64,000 bases of DNA from Isoetes taiwanensis (taxonomy: Eukaryota > Streptophyta > Lycopodiopsida > Isoetales > Isoetaceae): assembly GCA_021234155.1 (NCBI GenBank), contig JAJEKV010000011.1, positions 3,967,069 through 4,031,068 of the forward strand. Reading direction: 5' to 3'. Under the pieces are notes generated by a model. The model was given only the letters and a program-made list of their open reading frames with translations. It was not told the DNA's origin and did no database searches. Shown here in pieces: positions 6,692 to 52,705 of this stretch. Made by a program: the position numbers and the translations under genes. Each line of letters opens with the position of its first letter. Within the stretch, counting starts at the first letter, position 1.

Positions 6692-9125
6692 TGCTGCCAC
6701 TCATGGCAGCATAGAAGAGCCCTAGACATATCTAACATTTGGCTCATTGAAGACTCAGTCAAACAGCAAAAGGAACAAATGTTTAGAAGAACCAAAGAAG
6801 GACATTCACTTGGTTATCTCAAAAATTGGAGGATGGACAAGGTTTTTGATTATCATCCAAGGTACTAGAGATCACTCCTACAAGATTTGAAGTCACTTGT
6901 TGAAGAATTGCAAGACATGAGCATGGTATGAAGTCTATTTCATGATTTGAGCATTTGAAGTTTGGATTCTTGATGTTGTAAGAGTTTTGCCTAGCCAATT
7001 TCCCATTTTAATTGCCATTTGACTCATATTCCACCTTCCTATTTCTTGTCATCTCTACACTTCATACTATCATTACCCATACATCTATATTTCATCATAC
7101 CATACTTTGGGATTGTCAATTCACCTTTCCCTAGTCAAAATGACCCACACACTCATGATCCATCCATACATTCATAAGTTTACCAAAAGAAACTAAAAAA
7201 AAATTCTCTCACTTCAAAGACCTAGGGTTAAAATGATCACTAGGTTGAGGAAAGGTGGCTATTCAAAAGGTTGTCACCTATGTCTAGTTGGCAAAGGGAA
7301 TTTTTTATGCCCACATCATCACTCACAAGTCCACATCACCATTCATTACACACGTGTCAATCCACATCATTTTCATTCCATATCCACCTCATTAAAACAT
7401 TTTGACTAGGGAAAAGTTTTTGTCATCCAATGGTACCACATCAGCAGTACATTTGCCACCTCACCAAAATTCATGCCTAGTCACCCCCCTTCACTCTTTT
7501 GACAAAAAATCAAAGTGCTCCAAATCATCTTTTGACAAAACCACCTGGTAGCCCTTGTGAAAATATGCCACCTGGCACAAAAAAAAATTTCAAATTGAGT
7601 CTATTTGGACCTCCTTAAGCTACTTCTTGGGAAACGTGCCTTCTTGGAAAAAATGGCAAAACCTACCTACATCTACCCCCCATCTATCTACCCTCTCATT
7701 TTCCGCCAAGTGGCGTCCCCCCTGGCGTGCGGGTCGAAACTCTGGCCCGCTATTTGGGTGGGAGGAGACCACGTAATCAGTGAAAACGGCTTCAGAACTG
7801 TATTTATATCCTTGTTTAACTTTTTGCTCTTGGCCTGTGGGATATATCCGCTGAAGAAAGCAAGAACCTTTAAAATTTTTGCCAACCAAGAAACGGAATT
7901 TTTGGCAGTATCCGACCACAAATTCGCATCATTACCTTCCGAATCCATCTCGCAACATCAAGAAAACCAAATCGAAGCTAAAAGACAAAGGATCCTGGCC
8001 GTAAATTCAACAATTGCAATGTAGCGGGGCCTTTTTAAAGAGGCAAATCTCTATCGAAAAATCCGGGGGCTTTTACGCTAAATTGAAGATAGCTGGTGTG
8101 AAGTACATGCAAAAGCGATCTCTGGCTGCGGATTCGACCCCCTCCTTCTTTGTTCAAATTGATCGTTGATCGTAAAAGCGACCATAAACCCGTCCGTTTT
8201 TCTGGAAATATGCTTTGCTCATTAACCTGTGGGCATCGAAAATGATGTGATTCCTCCAATTTGATATATCAAGTGAATGAAAATCCAATTTGGTAATATC
8301 TTTCCCTTTGAAAATTGTTGAAGTTCCAAAAATAGCTCAAATAGCTTCTATATTGCATAAAGACTAAAGAAAATTCAAAAAATAGCTTATTTTATTTCCT
8401 TCAACTAGTATGCATATCAATCAACTTTGTTCTATGGTTAATAAAAAAAAAAAATTTGCTCATCATAATGCAATTCCGTTTCTCATCACTTTAACGCACC
8501 ATTGCACACTCTATAGTTGAACTCCTCAAGCTCTAGTGGTTTTAATAGCAAGGGTTGATTTAGGATATCTCTACTGTTTCTTTTACATAGATTTCCTACT
8601 TAAATATCGATAAAATTTGAAAAAAAGCATTCTCTGTTGCAAAAGACACAGTCTGTCAGTTCATAAAACCCCATAGTTCCAAAATATCTTTATTTTCGAT
8701 TTGTATTAGTGTTTGCACGTAACCCTTTTAGACCTTTTAACACCTTTCCGGTGGTTTCATTCAAAAAGATATTCCTAGAGAATTCTCGCAAAAGGAGCTC
8801 TCCGCCGAGGGCATTGACCTAAATTCGACCTAGTCGGGTTGTGTGATTTTAAAGTACCAAATGATATCTGACTTCAGGATATATTTTGCACATATATCAC
8901 ATCAATTGTCTAGTATACTATTGCATTGATTTTAGAAAAAAATTCAACTTATATTGCTCAGAATCTAAAAGTTAGCACTGTGCATTTTCTTCCAATTTGG
9001 GAAGCTGGTTCTAACAGATTTTTTGAAGGTTGTTTCTGCAAATTTTGAGCATAGAGTGGTTGCCTAAAGCAACCTGGAGGTCCTAGACCATTCGGTTGAG
9101 GGATTGCCGGGGAATACCCTCAACA
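6692..9125 (+). mobile_element. 5' LTR of nested Ty3/Gypsy element
   Basis: A 2434-bp LTR starting TGCTGCCACTCATGG and ending CCCTCAACA. It is nearly identical to 25878-28374. The flanks are CCCTC at 6687-6691 and CCCTC at 28375-28379, a perfect 5-bp target duplication. Compared with the 3' LTR it lacks 45 bp near 6767; the missing piece is bounded by TTGAA on both sides. A PBS-like stretch (TGGAGGCTCCC) lies three bases after its end. Confidence 0.95.
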
Positions 9126-9254: not shown

Positions 9255-9640
9255 ATGTCTGTACATCTCAACAAATCTGTGAATCTAAACACCACTGTGC
9301 CTGCTCAATACTTTGAACTGAATATTCCCATTCCTGTTCCTACATTTGACTCTACTATGAGTGCTAACAATTTTCTCAAGGTTTTTGATGAGTATTATCA
9401 AGAATATGGCCACAAGAAAGGTACCAAGTTCACTGAATTCAAGAAGTGCTTCAAAAATGATGAAGTAAGAGCTTGGTTGGAATATGTGATAAGTGATGGA
9501 ACTAACACATGGGATGAGATTATCAAAAGATTCCTAGCAAGGTTTGGAAAGGTTTATGATCCTCAAGATCTTGTTTTTGAATTACAAACCTTCCATATTA
9601 GAAATGGTGAGAGTTATATCCCAATACGGATTATCTCCAT
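9255..9640 (+). pseudogene. Ty3/Gypsy gag, truncated
   Basis: The frame starting at 9255 (MSVHLNKSVNLNTTVPAQYF) gives a retrotransposon capsid-like segment. Residues 30-125 contain a FDEYYQEYGHKKG stretch, then EVRAWLEYVISDGTNTWDEI and KRFLARFGKVYDPQDLVFEL. The W-x(10-12)-W-x(5)-F-L-x-R/K-F pattern is typical of retrotransposon gag domains. The similarity fades at about 9620-9640, and the zinc knuckle, protease and reverse transcriptase that should follow are absent. The frame continues to 9716 without family character, so the break with inserted DNA lies near here. It would have packaged the element's RNA; it is now a fragment. Confidence 0.8.
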
Positions 9641-9719
9641 GTTACCTTTACTATATCCTATGGCCTGCAGTTTGCCACTAGTGTTAAAACAGTTTGCCAT
9701 TAGTGTTTGCCACTAGTGT

Positions 9720-11800
9720 TCATACAACCTCCTCTTAGCATGCTAGGATTATAGCTGGTTGACACACTCCCATCTTTTATCTAAGTTCAAAAATACAATA
9801 CTTTTTTTAACCTAGACCTTATCATAAAACGACCACCACACTACACAATCACAATAAGTGTGCTCTCTTTTTTCTGAATGTTCCTTTTACAACACCAAGG
9901 CTATTAAGACCTTGGGCAGACTCATAGATAGTAAAAGATACTTCTATCTTATCTTAAAGAATGACTATCTATAAAGGAGACACATTCACCAAAGGCAATT
10001 GGCATGGCCCGTCCTGTGGGCCAGGAGTGCTTCCTTAATGGCAAAACTAACGTTCTGTTATCTTACTAAATTTGTCAAATATCTACATTACTGACCCTGC
10101 AATTCTTGCAACTTGAAATGGAACACTGAAGGAGCTCCATTAGCTTGTGTTTGTGCCTCATATCTGCCTTCATTATCTTTTTAACATTGTGTGCAGCAAA
10201 CATGTTGAAGATTGGATACATGTACTGTGAAGGTAATTCTTCCCCATCAAATAACATATGGATGTTGCCATCAATCACTTTCAAACTTCTTCCAAACTAA
10301 GGAGAATTATGACCAAAACGTAATTGAGCAAACTGCATAGGCAGAAAGTGGAATTCATGGTGCACATATGATGGATGGGTTGAACACCCGTTTTTTCATG
10401 TAAAATCCACTGTTCTATAAGATATGAATCTTGTTCATTTGCCAATATGGCACATCATTATCTCAACTAGTCAGGTCAAACCACAAATGTGTAAAATTAT
10501 AGATCCAGAAAATAGATTGGAAGTTGATAAAAAAGACAACTACAGTAAAATTGTGATTCTTTGTTTCCCAGACTTTGTGATTCTTTGTTTCACAGAAATG
10601 CCATGGAGCACTGATTTAAATACTCAAGTCCAGTAGGCTTCCAATCGCCATTGTACACGGTTTGCAAACAAATTTTAAAATAACAACGATATTTTGACAG
10701 AACAAATTACTATGGAAAAAACGAAAATTACCTGGCTGGCACAGAAAGCCACCATTTTCTGCTGCGTCTGCAACAATATTATAATCTGTGAGGCTGGCCT
10801 TACTAGCAATGCATATCCTATACCAGCAGGAAGAGCTTTTTAGCTGAATTTCCAAGGGAAAATTTGATAGCCGGAAGAATGTTGTTTATAAAGAATAGAA
10901 GTTGCAGACCTGAAATGGCAAGCATTAATATAGCCATTCTTCCTTTCAAGGATGCCAATACTGTATTTTCTGTCATAAGATGAACGCACTGGAAATCACC
11001 AAGCATGTGGTAGATATTTGACGATGAACTAGACATGTCACTTGTTTGCACTCCGCTTGGGCCTCATCAAGAACCATATATTGCCACGTCCCTGCCTTCA
11101 ACAAAAAAGAGGCAAGCACATTTTAACATTTACAACCCTAAACCAAAAAATAAAGAGGCAAGCACCATGGAAGTGCCAGCCACACCAATGCTGTTAATGC
11201 AACACCAAGTTGTCCTTGCTGTGCCCATAACCTGCAGTTAATTCTATTCCATGCTTCAATCCATTTTTAATCCATTGGAACATGCCATTCAAGAAGTATG
11301 AGTTGTCTAGGGGCAAGCAAGGCCTCTTGCATACAGAAAGACTCTCAATTGACTGCATAAAGGCAAGAATTAGATGAGACTAAATTAGGACAATGAACAT
11401 GATGAAAAGAAAGAATTTGCTAGTGCACAATAGACTAGAAACACAACAAAATATACAAAAGCAGTGCAACTTTGTGAAAGCGCTAATCTACAAATTTTTA
11501 GGCAGGAAGATCAAAGGAGAAATGCACAGAGAAAACTGTTGTGGCCCGCGCTTATAGAATAACACTATAAGTCTAATATACATATCAAATGCTATTAAAA
11601 CAGAAGCTACATATGACCCAGTAGCTTAATAACAGTAGCTTAATAACAGAGAAATGGAAAAACTTGTAGCTTCAAACAACTGACAGATTGCCATGAACGG
11701 GATCACTGCCTACAAAGCAAAGCAGTCTTAGCCTATGGCTATATGATCAGAAAAGCCCCTTACTACACTAGGCCGCCCCTTATAAAGATAAAAGCTAGAA
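9720..11800. other. Insert DNA without an assignable gene
   Basis: AT-rich sequence with one exon-like minus-strand stretch at about 10930-11043 (MSSSSSNIYHMLGDFQCVHL onward), which ends at a plausible splice donor (TTTCAG followed by GTCTGC). A second short candidate is at 10740-10815. I do not recognise the family. Direct short repeats (TTTGCCACTAGTGTT) occur at 9673-9720. Confidence 0.4.
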
Positions 11801-11820
11801 ATCTGTTATTGCCAATTTGT

Positions 11821-11946
11821 TACTGCCAATATATATGGCAAGTACAATTGCTAAATAGCTACTATTATTGTCAATCTGTAACACAAGTACAATTGCTAAA
11901 TGGCTACTGTTATTGCCAATCTGTATGGCAAGCACAATTGCACAAG
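11821..11946 (+). repeat. 45-bp tandem repeat, about 2.8 copies
   Basis: Units start at 11821, 11866 and 11911. The shared core is CAAGTACAATTGCTAAAT with TATTGCCAATCTGTAT. The period is divisible by three, so a frame stays open across it (repeating CQSVWQAQL-like residues), but there is no sign that it is translated. Confidence 0.8.
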
Positions 11947-11949
11947 CTC

Positions 11950-14320
11950 GTCATGATGTTTTATTTTATCAAATGCAACTCGAGGTGTTAGCATCCAATA
12001 ACGTCCATTCCCAGTCGTTTCTCGCTAGTCGTTCACTGGTCAGATATAGGTTCGTACATGCACATGTTGTAAACTACAAAAATTCTGCACGCAAAGTACA
12101 GGAGCTTGCCTTGCAGCACAACTTGGTTCCATACACTATACTAATTGCAGCATATGCTCGGTTTGAGTTCAATCTAAAATAATAGACTTTCATAACCATC
12201 ATTTTTTTCATTGCTTTCCACAGATCTCAGTTTGATACCATGGCAGGAAGTGCGCTAGCATTCGAAAGGTATTGGAAGTTTATTCAAATGAGGTCAAGGC
12301 CACATTGCCCTTGGAATTAAACAGTGCATCACTGCAAATAAATTCTCAAATCCAATGCCTCATCACATGCCATGCAGTGCACATCACACAGGATGAGTCA
12401 CTCTCTACAGGTGATCCAAACAGGATGATTCACTCTCTACAGGTTGGCATGCAACTTGGTGACATTCTGCAGATTCTAGATGTGAACAATAGAAAGTAGT
12501 CATCTTTTGCAAATGTACATAGCAAGGCCAACCAATTAGTCCCACCAATGGGCAGTTATCTATGCTAAGAAGAACCTATATATTTTATAGCAAGAGTTTT
12601 CTGTAACTTGCAGCGCTTACATAAGAACTTGGAGCAAAATATGACTAGATAAATTTAGTGAATGAAATACATGAATACCGCTTTGAAGAACAATTAATCA
12701 AATGCAACTTCTGACTTTCACTATATCAGTGATTCAAAAATTACCTTCTGGCAAAAATCCTTAACCTCTTTGATGCCTACAGTCCCATTTGTATCAGCAT
12801 CAAATTATCTCAATGTGCATCATTTCTTTGTACTCCCGATTCTCTGAATACATTCTGAAACACTTTCCTGCAAAGTGCAGACAATCCACCAAAAGAGGCA
12901 TCAAGGTGCAACAAATATGCGACATAAAAAGCATTCCTATAGCAGTTTTGAAAGGGTAACCCTCGAGCAATATCATACCATATACAACTCTCTTTCTCTG
13001 TGTTGATCAAGCAGTCTGTTCTAATCAAATTTAGTCTTAGCCTTGTCTTTCAAATGGCTAACACATAGTACAACAAACTGAGCCATCCAGTACTGTGCTA
13101 GCAATTGTTGTACACATTATAAAAGACAATATATTAACAAGATAAATAGCTCATTTGCATTTCCAAATGGAGCAGACTAAGGATACCTCTATTGCCGAAC
13201 CAGAGCGGCAGCCTTTGTTTGCCAAAGCAAAGCTTCATTCTTTAGTTGCAGAATGGATCAGATTGTCGGAATTGCGGCAATAGCATTGAACCTACAAACA
13301 ACGTGTGATGCTCCATTTCTGATCAAAAGCAATCACATAGAGATATTTAACAGAGTTAGCTTACCAGGCACAGATCTTCAACAAAACTTTTGCTACTCTA
13401 GCCACTAATATTCGTGCTGAAATGATAGTCTATGGCTTTTCGGAAAATGTAGAGCATGAAAAAATGATTTCAAAGTGCAAGACCCACGAACTTGCCCTAA
13501 ATCAAAATTCCCCTTCTTGTTTTAAGCTCAGCAGGTCTCGGACAGATACATCAAAAGTCCGCCTTTAGCATCAATTTATCTCATCTCATATTTGCCTCGT
13601 AGAGTAGGAAGCCGGTTCATGCGGATGCGGGTTTGGCGCCACAAATTAGGCATATTTTGACCACAAAGTATCACGGAAATAGGATGAAAGCGGTTAGTAG
13701 CTCTTTTTAGGGTTATTATCCGAACCTCGAATCTTACAGAGCAAGCCACAACATTTTCCACTTTCATATTCCACAGAGGCTTCCACATACCTAAATGCTC
13801 CATCAAAGCGGCCGATTAAGGCCGATCTTGCAATTGGTTCAGACTTTTTATTTAATTCCTTATTGTTGATAACTCACATCGCTTGTTTCAGTCCATTTTT
13901 TGCAGTGCATCCTTCAATACAATTCCTTAGTAAATCCAGATACACAACATTTTGAGTGCACATTTCCCTTTCACGTCCAATGCTATAAACTGAAGCTCTT
14001 TGATTGCAAACTAGCAGTGTTATCTAAGAGTTTTTCAAGGGTTTGTTGCCGAACTGTTAATTCTCTCTTGAGTTGCCATAAAATACATAAACAGTTTCCC
14101 AAAATAGGCAATGATATACTTCTGAAAGACACGTCATGGTTCTACCATACCTTCTACTAGTAATCTGCATTTGAAATTACAAAATTAAGGTAGAATGCCA
14201 TTGCTACACGTTAGCCTTCTCACTTTTAAATATGCTATTTGGATTAACACAAGCTCTTTCTCAAAAAATAATGGATTCAGCCTTCTCAATTTGTTTGTAG
14301 ACCTTGTGCCATTATTGTCT
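11950..14320. other. Insert DNA downstream of the deaminase gene
   Basis: No gene is assigned. An exon-like minus-strand stretch at about 12895-13010 encodes YDIARGLPFQNCYRNAFYVA and ends near a possible donor at 12895. Another is near 13730-13806. Neither matches a family I know. Confidence 0.35.
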
Positions 14321-16287
14321 TTAAAACCGGAGGAAGGCTGGAAAGCTTATTTCGCAAAGACATGCTGGGATACCTGATATGCAAAACAGGATCAATAAAG
14401 CAATAAATTATCAGGCAGAACACTAAAGCACGATAGAATATAGTATACCTTCACTTTTGCCTTTTGCCATCGATAGCAATTTCCGTGAAGCAGCATATGA
14501 GAAATCTGAGGCCACTCTTGTCTTCAGTTTCTCAGTATAGTATACAACTTCTGCAATCCCAGCCTATTCGTTTAGAATTAGAGGTTAGAGTCAAAATTTC
14601 AAAACTGCATGACTTTCTGTACAAATCATTAGCTCCAGGATTACCTGAATAATGATCTTTGCACATTCATTGCATGGGAACATGGTGACAAAAAGCTTCT
14701 CCAAAAACATATCCAACGCAGGACACAAGCACCAGCTTCATAAAGGAGGATTTAGAAGTTAGACTAATAACAGCATTGCCTTACTTGACCACATGCAGAT
14801 GCATGGTTTTTATTCAATATTGCATTAACTTCTGCGTGGCATACATACCTGCAATTTAGGACCATTGTGTATTAGAGCCTCATACTAAACAAAGGCAAGC
14901 AAAAAGACTTAACGGGTATTTTGTCTTCAGCGGGTCACCATCTACAGATTTCTGCACAAGCAAAGCAACCTTAATCATATAACTCCCCTTCAGACAAAAA
15001 AAAAGAAATAATAGTATAACCTTTGCCCATGGAAGCTCATCATCTGAACAACCTCGTGGGAACCCGTTATACTCAATTCCTGCAATTGGACCATGCAATT
15101 GGACCATGACATTTATGAAAAATGACAATATGAACACATATAGCATGCACACATGCGTGTAAGATGTAGAGAGAGCATACCAAGGATAACATTGTCTTGG
15201 CTGACCAAGCAAGCACCAACCTGCAAAATTTAACCTCATAGATACGATGATCCATGAAGGTAAAGAGCGTAAATACACTTAGCATGGCCTGGGACCCAAA
15301 CTTGCTAGCTAATATACACATGGAGACTATTCAAACAAATGTCGATGATCTAACAGTTTTTCTTTCCACAGAACCTTCCTCCAAATGGAAATTTATCACT
15401 AATATTGGCTCCTTTCATAGAAAATGATTTCACCAATACGTATACTTTAGGATCTCAAGGAATAAAGTTACCTGACGATTAGGATCTTTTGAACGCTGTG
15501 CTGAGAGAAAAGCAAGCGCCATGAAGTAGTCCTCCCAAGATAGGTATGCTGCACAAATTAATCTAATAAAAAAATACGAACCTCTGAGAACATTTTGGTT
15601 TTAAGGTAAGAATCTCGAATACCACAAACTTCGGTAAGCTTCGTTAAAAGCCGACGGGTTGATTATCAGAAATGCGAATATCTTACCCTTTGACGTTTGC
15701 ACGGGTTGTAATGGTCCAAATTGAGCTCCTGGCGTGTCGATTAATCGTCACCCGGGATTATTTCCTTCAAGATTTCAATACTCGGACCGGCATCAATCTA
15801 CTTGAGTCTCCAGATTTAGGAAACCTTGCGAAAGTGAAAAACTTGTCTGGCCCTGCGCTATTTCTACTTCTATCACCCTTAAGAGGTGCAAGAGAACAAA
15901 TGAGAAAAGAAGAAAGAAGAAAATGAAATGAAAAGAGTGGAAGGACACTTTTACCCAGAAAGACACAACACGATCAAAAATCTCCTGTAACCATCCTCGG
16001 GGCTGAGAAGCATATGGGAAGTGAGGAATGTGCGAAGAAAGCAAAGGGGCACCAATGGCAACTACGATGCCTCCAAGGATGGCAGCTCCGACTACCAGAA
16101 CCACATCTCGACCTGTAGAGCATGAAACCGGAGAAGATGAAGGTGGGTTCGGTGGTCTGGGCGTTGGAAACAGGCGCCATGGAGTGCTCAACATCTGTCC
16201 GACCATTTGTAACAGGTTTTCACAATCACGCAAAACCTTGTTTGGGCAATGAAAACAAACCCCGATTGGTTTTTCTCCTAGAGCCAC
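14321..16287 (-). CDS. Deoxycytidylate (dCMP) deaminase, nine-exon gene inside the insert
   Basis: It deaminates dCMP to dUMP for thymidylate synthesis. Exons on the minus strand: 16287-15972 (end uncertain), 15548-15472, 15220-15181, 15079-15021, 14951-14914, 14848-14785, 14698-14645, 14563-14449, 14373-14321. Exons 2-9 have GT-AG borders and all phases join. The first-exon donor I chose (GTGTTG) fits the phase but is weak. Landmarks are [54 protein letters not shown], the catalytic zinc motif [10 protein letters not shown] and the zinc cysteines in [12 protein letters not shown]. The predicted product is about 271 residues. The N-terminus has a hydrophobic stretch ([17 protein letters not shown]), as plant members do. 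The C-terminus may be frame-shifted in an AAAA run near 14455. No reading-frame break was found in the catalytic core. It sits inside a retrotransposon, so it is probably a transposed duplicate. Confidence 0.88.
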
Positions 16288-16689
16288 CCAGAACTCACTG
16301 TTCTTGACATACAGAAAACCAAAATGTACCCTAAAATGTGAGCTACTGCGTTAAATTTCTGGGCATTCGTTGTGTGAGAGCTTCTGCATAATCAGCAATA
16401 GCATGATGAAGATATATTGTAGTTGTGTGCTGCAAAATTTGAGTCTGCTTGATCACTGCTTCAACTACTTTTGAACGAGAAACCGAGAGGGGGCACTAGA
16501 ATGGATCCGAGGTCGAGACATAGGAAAAGCGCAGGGCCGGAAGTAGAGAAAGATAAGTGCAGAAACGATCTGGCGTACCTGGATATCACGAAGTCCGGCA
16601 ATCGGCCATAGATGGAGGAGTTCTTCGGGCAAGGGCCTGAGGAAATGGGAAAGAGGGCAAACTCCGACGTCACAGATCAGAAGCCCCAA

Positions 16690-16960
16690 ATAAAGGGGTC
16701 AATTTGGGGTTTAACATGGGCCGCCCGTCGATTTGAGATGGACGGCCGAGATTTAAATGTCTACACACTCTGCATCAAGGGGCTTATTTGGGGCTTTTGT
16801 TGTGGGCCGTTCATCTAAGAGATGGACGGCCGAGATCAATCTGTACCAATATTTTGGTACACCAACAAGAGGGTGCTTGGGGAGTTAGGAGGTGGCATGC
16901 GGGACCGGCCCATCTCAAAAGTGGACGGCCGAGATCAATCTCTACCAACATTTTGTGGCA
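16690..16960 (-). promoter_or_regulatory. Repeated GGACGGCCGAGATC motif upstream of the deaminase gene
   Basis: The motif GGACGGCCGAGATCAATCT or its shorter form occurs at about 16739, 16822 and 16922. TGGGCC (site II-type) sequences occur near 16718 and 16801. Read on the gene strand the motif is GATCTCGGCCGTCC. The same orientation relative to transcription is seen upstream of the 19-22 kb and 31.5-36.3 kb units. A promoter role is inferred. Confidence 0.5.
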
Positions 16961-17130
16961 TCAATCTCTACACCATTTGTGGCACTGCCAACATTTGTGA
17001 CACTCAATATAATTGTATATATATAAGGATATAAGGAAAGGATAAGGATAAACCTCCTGATACATAGCAATCTCCAATTCTGCATTACTTAAACCTCCTG
17101 ATACATCCAAATCCTTTGAGGCTTATCTTC

Positions 17131-17288
<158 letters not shown>

Positions 17289-17339
17289 ATCATATATATG
17301 TTCTTATGTTTGTCATATATATGTTCTTATCCGACAAAT

Positions 17340-17740
17340 CGGGTCTGCTCGAGATCCTACGGCCCACGTGGCTTTGGGACGTATCCTACGGCTCAGATGG
17401 CTTGGGAGATTCTATATATATTCTATATAGACGATCCTACGGCCCGTGTTGATTTGATCCTCGATCGTTGGTTCGAGATCCTACTACCACGTTGTTTGGA
17501 GACACATCCTACGGCCCGAGATGGCTTGGGAGTTTCTATATAGACTCTATGTAATCGATCCTACGCCCAGTTGCTCTTGATCCCCGATCGTCGATCCGAG
17601 ATCCTACTACCACGCGTTGTTTGGCACATATCTTACGGTCCACATGGCTTTGGGAATTATATGTAATAGATCCTATGGCTCATATTGCTTTTATATGGTG
17701 AGATCTTGATCGTTGATCGAGTCTAAGATCCTAAGGCTCA
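17340..17740 (+). repeat. Degenerate repeat with GATCCTACGGCCC motif
   Basis: The motif GATCCTACGGCC(C/T) or close variants occurs at least six times, together with GATCGTTGGTTCGAGATCCTAC and TGGCTTGGGAGTTTCTATAT modules. The order suggests a higher unit of roughly 130-150 bp, badly diverged. There is no coding content. Confidence 0.7.
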
Positions 17741-17785
17741 TGTTGAGTGCTCGTCCCTTAAGGAAAGGCTTCTAAAATTTTTTAT

Positions 17786-17857
17786 GTTATTGGGGCGATT
17801 CGAACCCTGGACCTCAACCCCCCAAACCCCCCACTGTAACCACTAAACCAAGCATTA
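17786..17857 (-). repeat. tRNA-like sequence 3
   Basis: The minus strand reads GCTTGGTTTAGTGGTTACAG (box-A-like), then after a G-rich stretch CCAGGGTTCGAATCGCCCC (box B). It resembles the two tRNA-like segments at 3432-3645. No full cloverleaf is visible. Confidence 0.5.
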
Positions 17858-17919
17858 ATTCCATAAATGTTTTATGTTTCAAATATACTTAAGGGTAATG
17901 TTCTAATTAAGATAAAATA

Positions 17920-18715
17920 GAATGTAACATTCTAGATAGTTCAAGAAAGTTCTAGAATGTTCTGGAGGCTCTAGAAAGTTCTAAAATCTTCTAGAATGTT
18001 CTAGAAAGTTTCAGAATATTCTAGAATGTTTTGGAAGATAAGAGAATCTAGGAGGAATTTAAGAGAATCCTTCCAGAAAGTCCCAAATTCTAGAACATAA
18101 GAGAATCTAGGGGGAATCTAAGAAATTTCTTCCAGAAAGTTTCAAATTGTTCTAATAAGTTCTAGAATGTAGGAGAATCTACGGGAATGTAAGAGAATCT
18201 AGGGAAATACTTCCAGAAAGTTCTAGGGTATTTTGAAAGTCTCAGAATGTTCCAGAAAGTCTTAGAATGTTCTAAAAAGTTCTAGAATGTAAAGGAATCT
18301 AGGAGAATCTAACGCAATCTAAAAAAATCTCATAAAATGTAAGAGAATCTAAGAAAATATTTACAATCCTAAGGGAATCTCTTAAAATCCAGGGGATCTA
18401 ATGGAATCTTCATAATATCTAAGGGAATCTAAGAAAATGTTGATGAAATCTTAGAGTATCTAGGGGAATCTTTATAGAATCTCTTTGAATCTCATATAAT
18501 GTAAGGGAACCTAGGGCAATCTCATAAAATCTAAAGGGATCTAAGAGAATCTAAGGGGATCTTTATAGAATCTTGAAGAATCTATGGAAATCTAATAGAA
18601 TCTAGAGGGAATCTTATAAAATTTAGAGGAATCTCCACGAAACCTCCAAGAGAACCTTGGTAGAATCTTAGAGAATGTATGAATTTAGAGTATTCTCAAG
18701 AGATCCTTTTAGAAT
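17920..18715 (+). repeat. Minisatellite of GAATCTAAGG-like units
   Basis: Nearly 800 bp made of diverged 10-11 bp units. The first part is dominated by TTCTAGAATGTTCTAGAAAG and the second by AGGGAATCTAAGAGAATCT. The plus strand is purine-rich. It separates the deaminase gene from the mTERF/Lhcb unit and lies between the two (AT)n tracts. Confidence 0.85.
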
Positions 18716-18770
18716 GTACGTAGGAACATGCTAAAACTCGAACATGCACCGTAGGACGCATTAAATTTCT

Positions 18771-18871
<101 letters not shown>

Positions 18872-18899
18872 ATAAAAGCAAAATGTAGTGTGTGCATAG

Positions 18900-18960
18900 C
18901 ATCTCGGCCGTCCATTTCTTTTCCCACAACTTTCATTCTGGGCCGTTGAAATTTTTTAAC
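18900..18960 (+). promoter_or_regulatory. ATCTCGGCCGTCC motif upstream of the mTERF unit
   Basis: ATCTCGGCCGTCCATTT at 18901 and TGGGCCGTT at about 18941 precede a pyrimidine-rich leader-like stretch (about 19020-19110). The motif has the same direction relative to the plus-strand unit as the copies upstream of the minus-strand genes have to theirs. Confidence 0.45.
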
Positions 18961-19849
18961 TTATTGTCGTCCCTAGATTTTGGCAGTTTGTTTGGGCGCG
19001 AGGTTTCGTTAGAGTCTCGATTAGAAATCGTTCCCACCCACCCAGAGTTTTTGTGTCTCTTTTTTCTTTCTATTCCGTCCACCTTCTCGCTTGCCTTGTC
19101 TTCTCGCCCTTGATTTTGTTGCATTTTAAAACTTCCATTTTAGAACGTCGGATTTAAAAACAGTTGGAAAGTTTTGTGCCGAATGAAGAGGCATGCTAGA
19201 TTCTGCATTCTAACATCGACTTTCTTCCTCTCAAATGATGTTTCATAGTCGATTGGGGTCATTGCCTGCTACCGGAATTATATGATATATATCATGTCTT
19301 TAATTTAGGGCAACACATTCGAAGCTTTTTCTAGATTGGAGCAAGCATTGCACCAGGATTTTTTCAATGGCATTCAGGACCGACTGTTTCAAGTACGGCA
19401 TGGTCCTTTAATGTCGATTCTCTTTATACAGGAGCAGAAGAATTTTTCCAGTGTGTCTTTTAATGGACATAAGATGTTTTGGATGCAGCATCGTAGAAAT
19501 AGGTAGAAATGGGTTTTCTGGCCCTTGGATGGATCGTAGAACATTAATTTGCTATGATTTGTGATTTTGAAATCTCATGGCTTTGGCTTATCCGTTTGAA
19601 ATTTTCATGGATCTGTTGTGGAATATCTGGAAGGATTGGAGGTGCCAAGAGATTGTCTTTGGCAAGCGATCATTTGTTTTCCTCCAGTACTACTGTATGG
19701 GATCGAAAACGAACTTCAGCCAAGAATGAGGACAATAAAGAAGGTACCTAAAATTCTCCTTGTGGGCAGCTTAACTTTTAGCCCTTCATAACATGTAGTG
19801 TAACGTGCTACATGACCTTCATGTTGTAACCCTGGTACTCTTCTGGTAG

Positions 19850-20211
19850 GTTGGTGTTCGAGCAAGAGATTTGGAGAAAATGGTCACAAAATACCCATGG
19901 ATCTTATGTAGAGCTATGGAGAGGAACTGTGACAATGTCGTATCATTTTTGCTCAGCATAAAAGTAACTTTCTTCTTATGCTCAGAGTATACATAATTAT
20001 GAGCTAATTCACCATGACTCTGATGTAGGTACCTAAAAGCCAGGTGGATAGGGTCATTACAAAATGTCCTCAAATTCTGGGTTCATCCCCAGAGACACTT
20101 AATAAAGTAGTGTATAGATTGAATCAACTTGGTGTTAAAAGCAAGAGGCTTGGAGAGGTCATCGCATTCAGCCCAAAAATTCGTGTAAGGTCGCTGCAGG
20201 ACTTTGACGAG
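19850..20211 (+). pseudogene. mTERF-repeat protein, two-exon fragment
   Basis: Exons 19850-19963 and 20029-20211 join in phase 0 across a 65-bp intron (GTAACT...TGTAG). The product reads VGVRARDLEKMVTKYPWILC, then VPKSQVDRVITKCPQILGSS and LNQLGVKSKRLGEVIAFSPK. These are consecutive mTERF motifs (helical repeats with the conserved P-x-(I/L)-L). Plant mTERF proteins bind organellar nucleic acids and act in plastid or mitochondrial gene expression. Only about 100 residues are present, against several hundred in a full protein. No targeting peptide is identified; a possible upstream exon at about 19655-19743 does not join in phase. It is a captured fragment or a truncated gene. Confidence 0.82.
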
Positions 20212-20746
20212 GTATTGTTCATCTGTGCCTTTGAAATTTGCAAACATTTATTTTGATGACCTGAATGACAAGTCACTTTATATTTTTGAGCCTTATATGC
20301 CATATTATGTCATCAACATTATGTTGGAGCTGGATCATGGTTCAGCCGTTTGCTTGCAAAACGAAATAGGACACTCTTGGAAAAGCTGAATTTACTACAG
20401 CCTTAGCTCGCTCTCATTAACGTTTGGGTCTAGCCCTTTATAGGTCAAATCTGTTCAATGACCTTACTGGCTGCAAGGTGAACTAGCTAGACCCACATCT
20501 AGCCCCTCATCCATTTCATGAATTAGTGTTTTATATCCCTACTATATATCACATGCTGAATCTTGATAAAAACAGAACCTATGTGAAGGCAATCTGCTTC
20601 TGCACATGAAAGTCCAAAACCAACTTGGTACCACATTTTGTATGCGAGCCTGCTGTGAACAAGAAGCGTACCCACATCGGGTGGTATGCAATTACAACAG
20701 TCTAATTCTGTATGGGTGCCCCATCTTATAGATTTTAAATCTGCAG

Positions 20747-21031
20747 GATTTTCTTGAAGATATCAAGCATGCCATTAAGGAGTGGAAAGCTTTCTTACAC
20801 GACTTTACTAAAGCAGGCAGCAGAAACAGCTCATCTGGTAACACTTTGGATGATGTTTGGTCTAGAGAAAGTGTAACACTGCTACTCATGAATGTGGCGG
20901 ATTTACTTGCCCTAAAGGTGAAACAAAACAATTTGAGTTTTTTGGTATATTTCGTTTCTACTAATGTTGGTCTTCTACAGACTGCAGCTGCAAGTGCAAA
21001 GGCTGGTCGTTCATATTGCATCAAGCACTAA
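20747..21031 (+). pseudogene. Two exons of an unidentified protein following the mTERF piece
   Basis: Exon 20747-20917 (DFLEDIKHAIKEWKAFLHDF to NVADLLALK) and exon 20981-21031 (TAAASAKAGRSYCIKH, stop) have clean CAG/GT borders and join in phase 0. I do not recognise the family. The segment is predicted to be helical and has no membrane stretch. It may be the C-terminus of the captured mTERF gene or of a different gene. Confidence 0.55.
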
Positions 21032-21334
21032 AACGCAGGATACTGAGGATCAATACATATCTTTTTGGAAAGACAGCAGAGTTAGTCATGTACTATGCCA
21101 CGTGCCATTTCCTAAGAGTTTTTCTTCCATGTTCTTCCACAAGTTTGGGGCAAAATGCAGCAGCTTGGAGTTCTGGTATCACCATGCAGCAAAACTACCT
21201 GGGCCATCTCCTTTAGAACCAGAGTAGACCATCCTTACTTCTTTTTGCCTTCAATCTCTTTGATCCTATTTGAATTTGAAGTTTCTTTAAGTGTTGCCTG
21301 TTACTTGGGTTTTATGATGAATGTTTTAATGCAG

Positions 21335-21487
21335 GGCACTGATTTGTGGTATGGACCTGATCGTATTAAATAATTGGGCCCCTTCTCTGCACAAACCCCC
21401 TCATATTTGAAGGGCGAGTTCCCTGGTGACTATGGCTGGGACACTGCTGGTTTGTCCGCAGATCCAGAAGCCTTTGCTCGGAATCGT
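21335..21487 (+). pseudogene. Lhcb2-type chlorophyll a/b-binding protein exon, with internal stop
   Basis: After a CAG acceptor the sequence encodes GTDLWYGPDRIK, a TAA stop at 21371-21373, then [20 protein letters not shown] and [18 protein letters not shown]. This is the N-terminal mature region of the major light-harvesting antenna protein of photosystem II; the GTDLWYGPDR and FSAQTPSYL forms favour the Lhcb2 type. The stop replaces a conserved Tyr codon. The similarity ends at CGT followed by GTTAGT, possibly a native splice donor, and the rest of the roughly 265-residue protein is absent. It is a captured exon, not a working gene. Confidence 0.93.
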
Positions 21488-21499
21488 GTTAGTCTCTAC

Positions 21500-23229
21500 A
21501 AGCAAGCACCATATCCATTTGATCTTAAGATTGAACAGATTGTGAAAATTTTCATTTTGTGACAATTTCATGCTTGAATTAACATTGGGTAAACGTACCA
21601 TGTTTGATTCTTTGTGCAGGCTATGAGGTAGGTCTGCCCTTCTTATAGATTTGTGCAAGAATTTATATATATCTTTCATGCCTTTATTTCCATCTTCATA
21701 TTTATTACTCTCTTTATAATCTATATTATGCATATGCATATCTGTACAGATGCTTTTCAAAAGCTTTCTACTCATTATATTTGGCCTAAAGAGATGTGTG
21801 CCATTCTGCATGCCAGCATGTAAATGACAAGGTAAACTTTTTTTAATCTTATACATTGTCTGCCTTGAAGCCCAATGCAGTGACCAAGATGAACCTAATC
21901 ATATTGTACTATGCAGCATGCATGAAATACTGTTATGAATGTTGTTATATCGTACTTTATTGTTTAAACGTCAAAATCATACTTACTAACTTGAGCTTTA
22001 TGGCTTTGTGTGTAATGCAGCTTTGTCTTGGATATTTGCCAAGCATTTATTGGAAGCTGGCTCACCTAGCCAACTATGCCTAAATCAATTGAGGAAAGAA
22101 CTTTCGTGTGTTGTATGTAAGTAATGTATGTTGAGAAACAATAATGGAGATCATGATGATTTTTAAGCAAATATCTGTTAATTTTGTTCAGCTGTATGTT
22201 TTGAGCCCTCCACAAAATGCAGGACACATGTATTGGCACTTTCTAAATACAAAGGCTTATGTTATGGCCAGCAGATGCCAATGAGCTTGTCTCTGATTTT
22301 TACAGAAAAGGCTTAAAGCCTATGCTACAGAAATGTCGTTATGGTTATGGTAGATTGCTCAAGACGTATCAATGTTGAGCTTGAAGCAACTTTGACATGC
22401 TTGCCCATAGCGAAGAAATACCCTATTTCTATTTATTTTCTTACGAATCCATAGATAAGAATCCATAAATAAGGTTTGGGAATGATGGAGCAATATTAGT
22501 GCTCTTTGAGAATGAAAAGAAAATATTTTGTTTAACCTTTGGACCATTTAAAATTTTCTTCTTTTGGTGACAAGCTTTAAGGATATGTGGCACGTCAATC
22601 AAAAGCAAAGCATCACATTCCACAAACTTGTAAAATAAGTCGGAGTTAATTTTGGGCTGGTGAACGTTAACGGTTAACAGAACAATATGTTTTGTAATGG
22701 TCGTGTAAAAACACAATAACGATGTGCCAAAAGATGACTAATTCACGTGGAATTCCTTCTAGAAGAAGGAAAAATTGGTGCAATAGAAAAGTACATCGAA
22801 AACTTAAGAACTTAATAAGAAGGGCCCATTTATCGTATTTTGAACTCCATAAACATTGATATAATCTCCATGGAAGTTTGAGAAACAATGGAAATTCTCG
22901 ACGTTGCGACATGGAATTGGAATAATTCCTCATATACTATATACGCATTTTTCAAGTTGCGAAGTCCCATATGCCATCCACATATTATCTTATTCATCTC
23001 CCAAAAGTCATTCTTTGAGCTTCAATATACTACAAATAGATTACATAATGATCATAAGTGAATTATTTATATTCAGTTTCGAACTATAGGAATTCATGGG
23101 ATGCAGGAGACAACTTAACAGGTCAAGGTAATGCATCACTTATATTATTTTTTCAAAAGAAGTTGGTATTGCCGAGATCTTTGTTGTTGTTATTGTTGTT
23201 TATTTAATATGAATTTTGGAATTATGCTC
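21500..23229 (+). other. 3' part of the insert, no assignable gene
   Basis: AT-rich DNA. Acceptor-like CAG followed by CTTTGTCTTGGATATTTGCC at 22018 could start another short captured exon, but no family is recognised. Confidence 0.4.
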
Positions 23230-23265
23230 GATGAAAAGCCCAGCAACGCTGGGCACTTTTTCTAG
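23230..23265 (+). mobile_element. Helitron 3' terminus (copy 2)
   Basis: A perfect hairpin GCCCAGC-AAC-GCTGGGC at 23238-23254, then ACTTTTT, then CTAG at 23262-23265, followed by T. This is the Helitron end rule: a hairpin about 10 bp before CTRR, with insertion between A and T. The last bases are identical to the terminus at 40554-40581, so both belong to one family. Confidence 0.88.
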
Positions 23266-24178
23266 TATCAGTATAACCAAAAGAGCTGTAGGATTAGTTC
23301 TGCTGCAAGAAGAAGAGGTGGTAACTTTTGCCAGCAAAATTTGGTCTAACACTGAAATGAGATATCCAAGACTTGAAAAAAGTGCAGCAGCCCTTATGTT
23401 CTTGATTGATAGACAGGGACATCTCATTCAAAAGAGCCATACTCAAGTGTACATGAAACAAAATCCTTTATCCTTGATGTTCTCAAAGAAGCAGCCTAAG
23501 GCTAAGATATGTAGATGGGCTTGCAAAATTCAAGCCTATGATATTGTTGTCAAAGTGATCACTTTAGTTAATGATCCTAGTTCATACTTGACTAATATCT
23601 TGTTCGAACAGGAAGATGAAGAAGGTTTGGCTAATGATGTTCAAGAAGATGCAGATGCAGATGTAAATCTTGTGCAGGAGGCAGATTGGCAAGAAGAGAT
23701 AAGAAGGTTTCTGGAGCTGAATGAAATACCAGAAGGGCTCAACTCTAGCAAAAAAAGAAGGTTCAAAGAAAAATGCAACAAGTATAGACTAATTGGAAAT
23801 GTGTTATGCAGGTATGACAAGGAAGGCATCATTCTAAGGTGTGTTGACAAAGAAGAAGCTAGATTAGTGGTAGAAGCGTGCCATGAAGGGGTATGTGGTG
23901 GACACTTTGCAGCAGATACCACAGCAAAGAAGATTTTGAGGTCTGGTTATTATTGGCCAACTCTTTTCAAGGACTGTTATGAGACAATCAAGCACTGTCA
24001 TAAATGTCAGGTTTTTGGCAGAAGGATTCTTCAGCCAGCTGCATTAACTGCCATAACTTCCCCAGGACCCTTCCAGACCTGGGGGCTTGATTTTATAGGA
24101 CCTGTAGATCCACCTTCTTACTCGCACAACATCGGTACATCCTTGTGGCCACCGATTACTTTTTACAAAATGGGCTGA
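23266..24178 (+). pseudogene. Ty3/Gypsy pol: RNase H end and integrase, 5'-truncated
   Basis: Directly after the Helitron end the frame reads SITKRAVGLVLLQEEEVVTF, with ASKIWSNTEMRYPRLEKSAA, the C-terminal half of RNase H. A RWACKIQAYDIVVKVI stretch follows. The integrase zinc finger is complete: H in CHEGVCGGHF and CC in IKHCHKCQVF. The start of the catalytic core is GPFQTWGLDFIGPVDPPS with the first catalytic Asp. The frame breaks near 24150. RNase H before integrase is the Ty3/Gypsy order. The reverse transcriptase and protease are gone. Confidence 0.93.
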
Positions 24179-25877: not shown

Positions 25878-28374
25878 TGCTGCCACTCATGGCAGCATAG
25901 AAGAGCCCTAGACATATCTAACATTTGGCTCATTGAATGCATGAGGAAATATGAAGACCATTGGCTTTCAGAAGCACTTGAAGACTCAGTCAAACAGCAA
26001 AAGGAACAAATGTTTAGAAGAACCAAAGAAGGACATTCACTTGGTTATCTCAAAAATTGGAGGATGGACAAGGTTTTTGATTATCATCCAAGGTACTAGA
26101 GATCACTCCTACAAGATTTGAAGTCACTTGTTGAAGAATTGCAAGACATGAGCATGGTATGAAGTCTATTTCATGATTTGAGCATTTGAAGTTTGGATTC
26201 TTGATGTTGTAAGAGTTTTGCCTAGCCAATTTCCCATTTTAATTGCCATTTGACTCATATTCCACCTTCCTATTTCTTGTCATCTCTACACTTCATACTA
26301 TCATTACCCATACATCTATATTTCATCATACCATACTTTGGGATTGTCAATTCACCTTCCCTAGTCAAAATGACCCACACACTCATGATCCATCCATACA
26401 TTCATAAGTTTACCAAAAGAAACTAAAAAAATGTTGAGGCATTACCCCCACGTTCTCTCACTTCAAAGACCTAGGGTTAAAATGATCACTAGGTTGAGGA
26501 AAGGTGGCTATTCAAAAGGTTGTCACCTATGTCTAGTTGGCAAAGGGAATTTTTTATGCCCACATCATCACTCACAAGTCCACATCACCATTCATTACAC
26601 ACGTGTCAATCCACATCATTTTCATTCCATATCCACCTCATTAAAACATTTTGACTAGGGAAAAGTTTTTGTCATCCAATGGTACCACATCGCCAATGAC
26701 ATTTGCCACCTCACCAAAATTCATGCCTAGTCACCCCCCTTCACTCTTTTGACAAAAAATCAAAGTGCTCCAAATCATCTTTTGACAAAACCACCTGGTA
26801 GCCCTTGTGAAAATATGCCACCTGGCACAAAAAAATTTTCAAATTGAGTCTATTTGGACCTCCTTAAGCTACTTCTTGGGAAACGTGCCTTCTTGGAAAA
26901 AATGGCAAAACCTACCTACATCTACCCCCCATCTATCTACCCTCTCATTTTCCGCCAAGTGGCGTCCCCCCTGGCGTCTTCAAACACGAAATCGGCCCGG
27001 CCGGGCGTGGGAGGAGACCACGTAATCGTGAAAAAACGGCTTGAATCTGTATTTATATCCTTGTTTAACTTTTTGCTCTTGGCCTGTGGGATATATCATT
27101 TGAAGAAAGCAAGAACCTTTAAAATTTTTGCCAACCAAGAAACGGAATTTTTGGCAAAAGATCAGACCACAAATTCGCATCATTACCTTCCGAATCCACC
27201 TCTCGCAACATCAAGAAAACCAAATCGAAGCTAAAAGACAAAGGATCGGCCGTAAATTCAAGAATTGCCTTGAGTAACGGGGCCTTTTTAAAGAGGCAAA
27301 TCTCTATGCGAAAATTCAGGGGCTTTTACGCTAAATTGAAGACTGCTGGTGTGAAGTACATGCAAAAGCGATCTCCTGCTGCGGATTCGACCCTCCTTGC
27401 TGTTCAAATTGATCGTTGATCAGTAAAGCTGACCATAAACCTGTCCGTTTTTTCGGAAATATGCTTTGCTCATTAACTGTGGGCATCGAAAATGATGTGA
27501 TTCCTCCAATTTGATATATCAAGTGAATGAAAATCCAATTTGGTAATATCTTTCCCTTTGAAAATTGTTGAAGTTCAAAAATAGCTCGAAATAGCTTCTA
27601 TATTGCATAAAGACTAAAGAAAATTCAAAAATAGCTTATTTTGTTTCCTTCAACTAGTATGCATATCAATCAACACCGTTCTATGGTTAATAAAGAAAAA
27701 AGATTACGCTCATCATAATGCAATTCCGTTTCTCATCACTTTAACGCACCATTGCACACTCTATAGTTGAACTCCCTGAAGCTCTAGTGGTTTTAATAGC
27801 AAGGGTTGATTTAGGATATCTCTCTTTGTTCCTTTTACATAGATTTCCTACTTAAATATCGATAAAATTTGAAAAAAGCATTCTCTGTTGCAAAAGACCA
27901 CGGTCTGTCGGTTCATAAAACCCCATAGTTCCAAAATATCTTTATTTACGACTGTATTAGTGTTTGCACGTAACCCTTTAGACCTTTTAACACCTTTCCG
28001 GGTGGTTTCATTCAAAAAGATATTCCTAGAGAATTCGCAAAAAGGAGCTCTCTGACGAGGGCATTGACCAAATTCGACCCTAGTCGGGTTGTGTGATTTT
28101 AAAGTACCAAATGATATCGACTTGGGGATATATTTTGCACATATATCACATCAATTGTCTAGTATACTATTGCATTGATTTTAGAAAAAAATTCAACTTA
28201 TATTGCTCAGAATCTAAAAGTTAGCACTGTGCATTTTCTTCCAATTTGGGAAGCTGGTTCTAACAGATTTTTTGAAGGTTGTTTCTGCAAATTTTGAGCA
28301 TAGAGTGGTTGCCTAAAGCAACCTGGAGGTCCTAGACCATTCCAGTTGAGGGATTGCCAGGAATACCCTCAACA
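25878..28374 (+). mobile_element. 3' LTR of the nested Ty3/Gypsy element
   Basis: A 2497-bp twin of 6692-9125, beginning TGCTGCCACTCATGG and ending CCCTCAACA, then the target duplicate CCCTC (28375-28379). Expected purines before the LTR are missing; the sequence there is pyrimidine-rich (CTCCCTCTTTTTTTT), so the polypurine tract is not identifiable. The LTR pair is highly similar, which points to a recent insertion apart from the clustered differences described in the findings. Confidence 0.95.
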
Positions 28375-41232: not shown

Positions 41233-41246
41233 TAAGGTGGGGAGAA
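41233..41246 (+). promoter_or_regulatory. Polypurine tract of family-A element
   Basis: AAGGTGGGGAGAA directly precedes TGTGAC at 41247. Confidence 0.85.
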
Positions 41247-42931
41247 TGTGACTTTTCCAGGCATTTATACGGTATACGTATGCACGCCGGGACACGTCAC
41301 TAGGACATAAGGGGGTAATTGTCTAAGTGGGAGTCGACCACAATGGTTTTATTCAGCTATGTTAATAAATCCATTGTGGATAATTATGAAGTATATAGCC
41401 TAATTACCCTAATTAAGCTAAATTAGTTAATTAGCACCAACAAGGGGGTGCCACTTGACCCAAATCGATTGGGCAAGGCATGGTTTCCATTTTGGACACC
41501 CAAATTAGGGCTTTGTGCCCCAATTGAATTAGGAGCACCGGAGATGGAGGAGGAGTGCTGGGGCTTCAAGGAGCAGTTGAGCGCCCAAGGATTGTTCTGC
41601 CGAGCCCAAGGAGCATTTGAGCCAAGGATTCTTGTCGACCTCACCAAAATCATCGAACAACCTCTAGTTGTCTTTGCCACCCTTCAGACAAAGACACCAT
41701 GGAAGCACCCCACGATAACGGTTTCGGCCAAACACCGGTTAGTGGTAGTTTAGTTGTGAATTCTAGGGTAGCCCTGTTGGGCACTTGTTGTGTTGTTCAT
41801 GCATTCTCTCAGGTGTTTCAATGGTAGGAACTAACCCTTGATTGTAAAGGTAAGTTCTCTTCATATTCGATTTCGGTTTGGTTCTTAAAAGGATGGATTG
41901 ATAGTTCTTTGTATGGTATCACTCTGGAAATGGGGGAAATAAGGGCGAGGGGTAGAGACCTCTCGAACTCATATCGTTAGTATGTTCCTAGATAAAACCC
42001 GTAATTCCTAATAATGCGGCACGTGCACAAGAGCCCATAGGGTCATAGACGCTATGGATGGGCTTAGCACCGCGGACAAGGAACACGGTGGTGAAGTGGG
42101 GGTGGGGTCTTGCACCGAACATAAAAGGCTCCCCGAGACTCCTACGGGTGGGCTAGGCACGATGGCCTGGCCACGTAGAGGGCGGGTATGGGTCGACACT
42201 CCCAGGTGTAGTGGTGTGACCCGTATGGGGCACCTTGCACTTTGAGTAGATTTAGGGTGAGTAAGTGAGATGCACGGATGCGGGGTCGCCGATGCGGCAC
42301 GTATTCTCTAGCTCACCCATGGAACCACTTTGTGATTACGGAAGGGGACGCTTCCCCGACCTGCCTCATCGGACCGGGGCTTCATGAACCCTGGAGTAGG
42401 CTCAAAAGGGTGATACCTTGAGTCTGCGTCTCCGGAAGGCTATAGCGAAGCCATAGCGTGAATTGACCCATCTGCAAAGTGTGCACAGGAGGGGCGGATG
42501 GAGTGGACAACCCTAGCCGATGTTCTATGCCAGCCAACGCCATGCCAAGACTCTGGCCTGGCCGATCTCTTGAGGCCCAACCGGTCGATCCTCACCGAGT
42601 CCGAGCCGGGTAGAACCTGAGGTTTGGGTGTTTTCTTAGTTTTAGATGCATATTCTTTGCCGTTGGTATTTGGATGGATGCGCCACCCTTCGTGGTGGTT
42701 ATTTATATGTGATTTATGCTGTGTGCTAACCCTTGTATTTGTGCTTCCGCGACGTAGGAGTCCCATTGAAGGCGTGGGCCGAATGACCCCTTCGTGTCCT
42801 TCTTTCGAGCACCATAATATGGGTGGCCGGAATAGACGGAGGGCCCTGCTCATGGCGAGGTGGTTGCCATGGGAGGGGAAAGTCCCCGTATGTATACGTC
42901 CGGGTGTCGTATATATTCAGGGAGCGTCACA
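41247..42931 (+). mobile_element. LTR, family A, copy 2 (3' LTR)
   Basis: 1685 bp, TGTGAC to GTCACA, preceded by a polypurine tract, so it is a 3' LTR in plus orientation. It is the closest relative of 1291-2978. It begins more like the LTR start at 6357 (ATTTATACGGTATACGTAT). The right flank (GGTTT...) does not duplicate the left flank of copy 1 and is itself LINE-like sequence. Confidence 0.92.
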
Positions 42932-42978
42932 GGTTTTTCCTCGAAAACCCAAAAGGGCGGGGTTTTTTAATCCCGGTG
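42932..42978 (+). mobile_element. LINE 3'-UTR fragment flanking the LTR
   Basis: GGTTTTTCCTCGAAAACC and GGGGTTTTTTAATCCC match, on the opposite strand, 61620-61668 inside the LINE described below. The family-A LTR therefore abuts an older LINE piece. Confidence 0.65.
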
Positions 42979-52700: not shown

Positions 52701-52705
52701 TTGCA

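Follow-up and report, generated by a model that had tools for sequence, protein, structure and literature searches.

Transposons capture whole genes less often than they capture gene fragments. A closely comparable case is the maize Helitron Hel-BSSS53-z1C1, which has an intact cytidine deaminase gene, ZmCDA3, encoding a nucleoside deaminase (Xu and Messing, 2006; PMC1657028, in the sections cited here), and the same sections stated in 2006, for maize, that capture of a whole gene is rarer than capture of fragments. The locus analysed here lies in a 64-kb stretch of DNA from the lycophyte Isoetes taiwanensis (the window, C919:3967069-4031068). It resembles Hel-BSSS53-z1C1 in that a plant non-autonomous element contains an entire deaminase gene, here from another branch of the same superfamily, with its source gene still in the genome and an adjoining fragment of another gene. 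As given in the cited sections of PMC1657028, the maize copy has an intact coding sequence and its element has TCT and CTAG ends, whereas the Isoetes copy is a damaged, predicted dCMP deaminase gene present in at least eight mobile copies, with a different 3´ end and sites flanked by (TA)n.

Maize Helitrons with stepwise capture of gene fragments are similar to the Isoetes family in their fixed tip and stepwise gain of captured pieces; in the cited part of PMC3288121 they are defined by TC, CTRR and a hairpin 10-12 bp upstream, of which CTRR is missing from the Isoetes ends compared. The bat Helitron Helraiser also forms exact head-to-tail joints, captures sequence by read-through and acquires new 3´ ends, but it belongs to an animal, has a known transposase and ends in CTAG (PMC4778049, cited part), whereas the Isoetes family has no linked transposase at the loci examined. 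Finally, (TA)n targeting is known too from plant Mutator-like elements (MULEs; PMC4486113 and PMC5907723, cited parts): SaTar, MuTAnT and Micron likewise have (TA)n flanks and form (TA)n-joined arrays, but, as described there, they have terminal inverted repeats, and none were found in the Isoetes family.

No literature report of Helitrons in Isoetes was found, and neither PMC8566536 nor PMC10541799 has the word Helitron in its main text. A search for Helitrons together with lycophyte gene capture found no report, and one for Helitrons together with deoxycytidylate deaminase found the maize paper only (PMC1657028, in its cited sections). The window case is a good example of an already known process, the copying of a host gene by a transposon. 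Its particular value is that the capture can be traced stepwise in one genome, which has an unbroken source gene, the mark of a 27-bp loss and two daughter subfamilies. It also introduces a large lycophyte element family with ends that match neither those of canonical Helitrons nor those of the described (TA)n-targeting MULEs, as far as the cited descriptions set these apart. For annotators it holds a warning, in that a dCMP deaminase predicted at the window locus would be a captured passenger and not an additional gene.

A ten-exon deaminase gene copy in the window

Eight exons on the minus strand of the window (15548-14321) are bordered by GT and AG and together form one open frame to a stop at 14321, in agreement with the first-pass annotation, which had been made from the sequence alone and had reported eight exons in phase; its exons 2-9 are taken here as exons 3-10 of a gene with exons numbered 1-10. 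The protein matched PF00383 at 7.2e-21 in a Pfam profile search and human DCTD (2w4l) with an E value of 5.8e-52. Both zinc motifs, HAE and PCxxC (FPCNECAK), are aligned with 2w4l and intact, as had also been annotated. By these PF00383 and 2w4l scores, which are far beyond chance, the predicted protein is a dCMP deaminase of the DCTD type.

Comparison with the native gene placed two more exons upstream, and the captured copy with all 10 exons extends over 13904-16247, where it matches the native loci C930 and C982 at 90.7-90.8%. Exon 1 (16206-15955) begins with ATG, encodes a hydrophobic segment and is open in the window. Exon 2 (15877-15687) is without 27 bp of the native exon, has stops in all three frames and ends with one extra A. 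The initial base of exon 3 (15472-15548), a C, is found in none of the nine other loci aligned, and exons 4 (15181-15220) and 6 (14914-14951) have GT-AG borders. In exon 5 (15021-15079), the codon at 15074 gives GIEYNG for GIGYNG, a change common only to C1035; all eight other loci covering this position have GIGYNG, and GYNG is also present in 2w4l. The GYNG motif is important in dCMP deaminase. Exon 7 (14785-14848) carries the HAE motif and exon 8 (14645-14698) carries FPCNECAK behind an acceptor that reads GGAG, as against GCAG in C930 and C982. Exon 9 (14449-14563) has a 7-bp tandem duplication (GCAAAAG twice) that is absent from the nine other loci, and because of it exon 10 (14321-14373) is read in a frame that differs from the native one.

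The frame of the window copy is thus broken in exon 2, by the extra base that begins exon 3 and by the duplication in exon 9, and a complete frame from the start codon is found in native C930 and not in the window copy. The claim that the duplicate has stayed readable holds for exons 3-9, which are open, and falls short at the exon 2 stops, the extra base of exon 3, the exon 9 duplication and GIEYNG.

The native gene and the mobile copies

When the genome was searched at the DNA level with the gene, long matches were obtained at 10 places: the window, C1035, C930, C982, C1009, C1026 (twice), C932, C941 and C652. Shorter matching pieces of the deaminase gene were also found elsewhere in the genome. 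With the deaminase protein, 39 matches were obtained, all within the ten deaminase loci (61 candidates scored). The genome searches report best candidates only, so the copy numbers given here are lower bounds.

Two of these loci, C930 and C982, match the window only at 16247-13904, plus a short repeat that covers part of the 3´ end, and neither carries the 5´ tip of the element. They are 94% alike across 4.9 kb including flanks, and from this comparison they are probably two haplotypes or a duplicate contig. When the ten exons of C930 are joined, the frame is unbroken from ATG to stop as assembled (302 codons); in C982, exons 2 and 9 contain small breaks resembling sequencing errors. The flanks of C930 contain other repeats. 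We take C930 as the native gene, the source of the copies in the same genome. The first-pass annotation had proposed a search for a second dCMP deaminase locus, and with C930 (and its near-duplicate C982) such a locus exists; the window is not the only one.

The captured stretch starts 41 bp 5´ of the native ATG and ends ~440 bp beyond the native stop; every exon and intron was therefore carried along, but no promoter-sized region. The upstream region, which had been thought to have moved along with the gene, is therefore not part of the copy, homology to the native locus starting at those 41 bp. The left boundary of the capture, at 16247, is identical in all mobile copies that reach this point. 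In addition, 27 bp of exon 2 (encoding WFKSIAAGN in C930) are present in both native sequences and absent from all eight mobile copies. These shared marks show a single capture of the native ten-exon gene, with the 27 bp lost before the copies spread.

The mobile copies, at least eight loci among the best candidates, are of two kinds. The window and C1035 make up a subfamily without internal duplication, and in the other six of the eight (C1009, C1026 twice, C932, C941 and C652) exons 7, 8 and part of 9 are repeated. A tree grouped the window with C1035 (support 0.975) and set C930 and C982 apart (1.000). In five of the six copies of the duplicated subfamily, all except C941, the deaminase is followed by the same second gene piece. 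We take this piece to resemble YchF/OLA1; its match to TIGR00092 is weak (E 0.006), and neither Pfam nor, up to E 0.1, PDB gave a match.

A different locus, C1018, was considered as the native gene and rejected, being an old decayed piece of deaminase exons 6-10. This piece occupies 2193-2668 of the 4.5 kb examined, and no element trace was seen by eye in those 4.5 kb. A PF00383 profile search of the genome found 20 matches, all outside the ten deaminase loci, and local searches with the deaminase protein at eight of the 20 places found nothing similar. With these eight of 20 covered, there may be a further divergent dCMP deaminase elsewhere in the genome.

Extent and ends of the carrier element

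The gene copy is part of a mobile element on the minus strand (9613-17030) whose 5´ end is at 17030 (TCCTTATATATATACAATTATATTG...), whose 3´ part is truncated at 9613 and which is 95.5-95.7% identical lengthwise to C1035. Its interior is a mosaic of modules, all on the minus strand here. The 5´ tip module (16785-17033) is common to the family, all 40 scored of 692 first-look candidates being long matches. Among the 40 of 362 candidates that were scored, matches to the module at 12533-13900 were confined to the window and C1035, and the module at 10567-12533 was shared with loci beyond the ten deaminase loci. The segment at 9613-10554 belongs to the 3´ body of the family, which elsewhere continues for ~2 kb more to ..TACAANNNNTTGTATATA(TA)n. 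The window element has 148 open pieces of at least 30 aa (74 per strand), and material from eight of these, plus two pieces from the other subfamily, was run against Pfam; scraps in the window resembling an EF-hand or a release factor were beneath every cut-off.

The 5´ tip of the family reads TCCTTATATATATACAATTATATTG after ATA (the tip is also written TCCTTATATATATACAATT). Its boundary in the window is common to eight other loci, with ATA|TC in all nine loci aligned. Helitrons insert between A and T and do not duplicate the target. In the Isoetes family an A precedes the TC tip in each of the nine, and the remaining features of the insertion sites are masked by (TA)n or tandem joints; the 5´ flanks vary and consist of (TA)n, unrelated sequence or the end of another copy. 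At C1035 and C932 the family 3´ end is ..TACAANNNNTTGTATATA followed by (TA)n, and at C1009 it has a longer loop. A 5-bp stem stands at the extreme terminus (a TACAA/TTGTA hairpin), where Helitrons have CTRR and a palindrome of 16-20 bp ~11 bp upstream of it. No CTRR was found when the ends at C1035, C932 and C1009 were compared, and no terminal inverted repeat between the two family ends was found beyond an AT run.

Copies of the family often adjoin one another. At C1035, the 3´ end passes directly into the 5´ tip of another copy, and a 3´ end lies directly upstream of the tip in five of 10 tips examined, none of which has a head-to-head partner. Genome-wide, we found 35 exact head-to-tail junctions, with 0 in the reversed control, and one site with a head-to-head junction, a ratio that is rough because the two search patterns differ in strictness. 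The sole head-to-head tip junction, at C1067:24660443-24660474, is a perfect palindrome.

A rolling-circle-like spread of the family is supported by the TC 5´ tip, the lack of a terminal inverted repeat and the 35 junctions versus 1, and by its sequence features the evidence favours such a spread over transposition by (TA)n-targeting MULEs. The carrier looks like a rolling-circle transposon, yet its 3´ end is not the CTRR of Helitrons. PF14214 loci are abundant in the genome (1813 first-look candidates, 150 scored), and at the six of them that were inspected, with ~1.5 kb of flank each, no Rep/helicase was linked to family ends. At C1100, where a tip and a tail are 13 kb apart, 3 kb of the sequence between them showed no frame longer than 89 codons. 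With CTRR missing and no transposase linked, the element is not filed here as a Helitron. We infer that the family is non-autonomous, with a fixed 5´ tip and a variable 3´ content that picks up host sequence.

The first-pass annotation had let the inserted block end at a Helitron 3´ terminus. This did not hold up: the block stops at 9613, ~2.05 kb before the family 3´ end as seen at C1035, and that end is not CTRR. A canonical Helitron ending at the edge of the block was also looked for directly in a minus-strand scan for CTRR plus hairpin (9700-14300), which returned two weak candidates, and the homology break lies elsewhere. What stands of the proposal that a rolling-circle element moved a complete gene is that a mobile element, rolling-circle-like in its spread, copied a whole multi-exon gene; the Helitron terminus drops out.

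Nesting in a Ty3/Gypsy element

The block lies inside a Ty3/Gypsy element on the plus strand (6692-28374), with LTRs at 6692-9125 and 25878-28374 that are paired TG..CA and a 5-bp CCCTC duplication on both sides. The gag part extends to 9612, and its match to other copies, of up to 100%, continues to that position; the end of the reverse transcriptase (RT) part is at 17060-17126, and RNase H and integrase follow from 23273 (by eye). In a relative at C1028, in which RT, RNase H and integrase were ordered by eye, no such gap is present; by comparison ~3.2 kb of Gypsy is missing from the window, a stretch that begins inside gag and extends almost to the RT end. The Gypsy element that holds the window copy is young. 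The nest had been annotated as a gene lying between gag and RNase H pieces of an element with a perfect target duplication. The gag before the block, the RNase H/integrase after it and the CCCTC on both sides bear this out, except that the Gypsy element has not merely been interrupted but has lost the ~3.2 kb.

Among 41 candidates, 40 of them scored, the junction between gag and element at 9612/9613 occurred once. At the right junction, a short Gypsy-like filler, AAACCTCCTGATACAT, is repeated. The simplest order that we infer is that the element inserted into the RT region and that one deletion then removed the element 3´ end and adjacent Gypsy sequence. A second, separate insertion of 6.1 kb (17127-23272) starts in a (TA)n run inside the Gypsy element. 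At 17900-18700 there are degenerate AGAATCT/TTCTAGAA-like repeats, similar to those that flank the C1035 and C1009 copies.

Sequence change in the window copy

Changes in exons and introns were counted with columns within 3 of a gap omitted. Between the window and C930, the core exons had 6 changes in 430 positions and the introns 42 in 839 (p 0.0009); between the window and C982, the counts were 8/419 and 44/828 (p 0.004). Exons 1, 2 and 10 had 25/426 changes relative to C930, no fewer than the introns. By codon, the changes between window and C930 were 4 synonymous and 2 non-synonymous among 139 codons. Among the mobile copies, core exons 3-9 of the window and C1035 had 8/396 changes and introns 14/865 (p 0.65), and the core exons did not stand apart from the introns relative to C1026 (p 0.79), C941 (p 0.81) or C1009 (p 0.33). 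The low number of core-exon changes between window and native gene is explained by selection on the native branch, and past selection on the window copy may have occurred. That the copy is a functional duplicate under selection was rejected, given that core exons and introns of the mobile copies diverge alike.

The published assembly is nanopore-based (PMC8566536, cited part). Clusters of indels sit at CAG motifs in several copies, also beside the exon 2 and exon 3 indels, so the single-base lesions in these two exons may be errors. The E codon of GIEYNG, being found at two loci, can hardly be a sequencing error. Clusters of small differences amid identical stretches were seen both in the mobile copies (often at CAG) and in the Gypsy LTRs (e.g. 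7707-8250 versus 26956-27500); such clusters in repeats suggest nanopore consensus errors.

Explanations for the locus

The account that we consider likely is whole-gene capture into a DNA transposon family with two subfamilies, with the window copy nested in Gypsy, trimmed and probably a dead passenger. The native ten-exon dCMP deaminase gene was copied, with its introns and short flanks, into the transposon family, and 27 bp of exon 2 were lost before the copy spread. A rolling-circle-like process would then have spread the non-autonomous family, with its fixed 5´ tip and variable 3´ content, and one member would have inserted into the RT part of the Gypsy element, where one later deletion would have trimmed both element and Gypsy. 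A more far-reaching version, which we think very improbable, is that the family represents an undescribed lycophyte rolling-circle-like lineage that places head-to-tail units at (TA)n, uses the TACAA/TTGTA hairpin in place of CTRR, moved a ten-exon gene in one step and has at least one copy still making an enzyme that alters the nucleotide pool.

It is highly improbable that the captured gene is itself functional, as a second, element-borne dCMP deaminase that is expressed and selected, perhaps from the methionine of exon 3. Open exons 3-9, intact zinc ligands, the 4 synonymous and 2 non-synonymous changes in 139 codons and core exons closer to the native gene than the introns are (p 0.0009) are what such a gene would have, and several of its frame lesions are possibly nanopore errors. 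These features are outweighed by the stops in all frames of exon 2, the 7-bp duplication in exon 9, the G to E change in GIGYNG at two loci, the GGAG acceptor of exon 8, the lack of the native promoter and the similar rates of change in core exons and introns among mobile copies. We regard the window copy as probably a passenger without function, a reading that follows from the absent native promoter, the broken exon 2, the weakened exon 8 acceptor and the changed GIGYNG motif.

The carrier might instead be a (TA)n-targeting MULE of the SaTar, MuTAnT or Micron type and not a rolling-circle element, which is unlikely. MULEs capture genes, and several copies of the family are flanked by (TA)n. 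MULEs of these types make microsatellite-joined arrays in guayule and rice (PMC5907723, cited part); against this, the family ends have no terminal inverted repeat beyond the AT run, and random nesting would yield many head-to-head junctions, where 35 head-to-tail and 1 head-to-head were found. It is doubtful, too, that the block came into Gypsy through repair or through a template switch of the retroelement, as opposed to transposition followed by deletion. The missing 3.2 kb of Gypsy, the non-terminal left junction and the filler AAACCTCCTGATACAT repeats at the right junction would fit this origin, but the right junction is the conserved 5´ tip of the family, as insertion predicts, and the single occurrence of the 9612/9613 junction (among the 40 scored of 41 candidates) suggests that the chimera has not been copied. 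A misassembly as the cause of the nesting is extremely improbable: the assembly is nanopore-based (PMC8566536, cited part) and has visible error clusters, but the element is collinear with C1035 across 7.4 kb and the Gypsy element retains its CCCTC duplication. Whole-gene capture by a transposon, followed by nesting and trimming, remains the account we prefer.

Other features of the window

Three further features of the window were noted. A direct repeat of 1.7 kb, 91.6% alike, is present at 1289-2979 and 41245-42932, 40 kb apart. On the minus strand, a 684-codon open frame of leucine-rich repeats, named by eye, lies at 43963-46017. At 52705-59191, a 3.2-kb direct duplication has adjacent copies that are 96% alike, with a related open frame in each.
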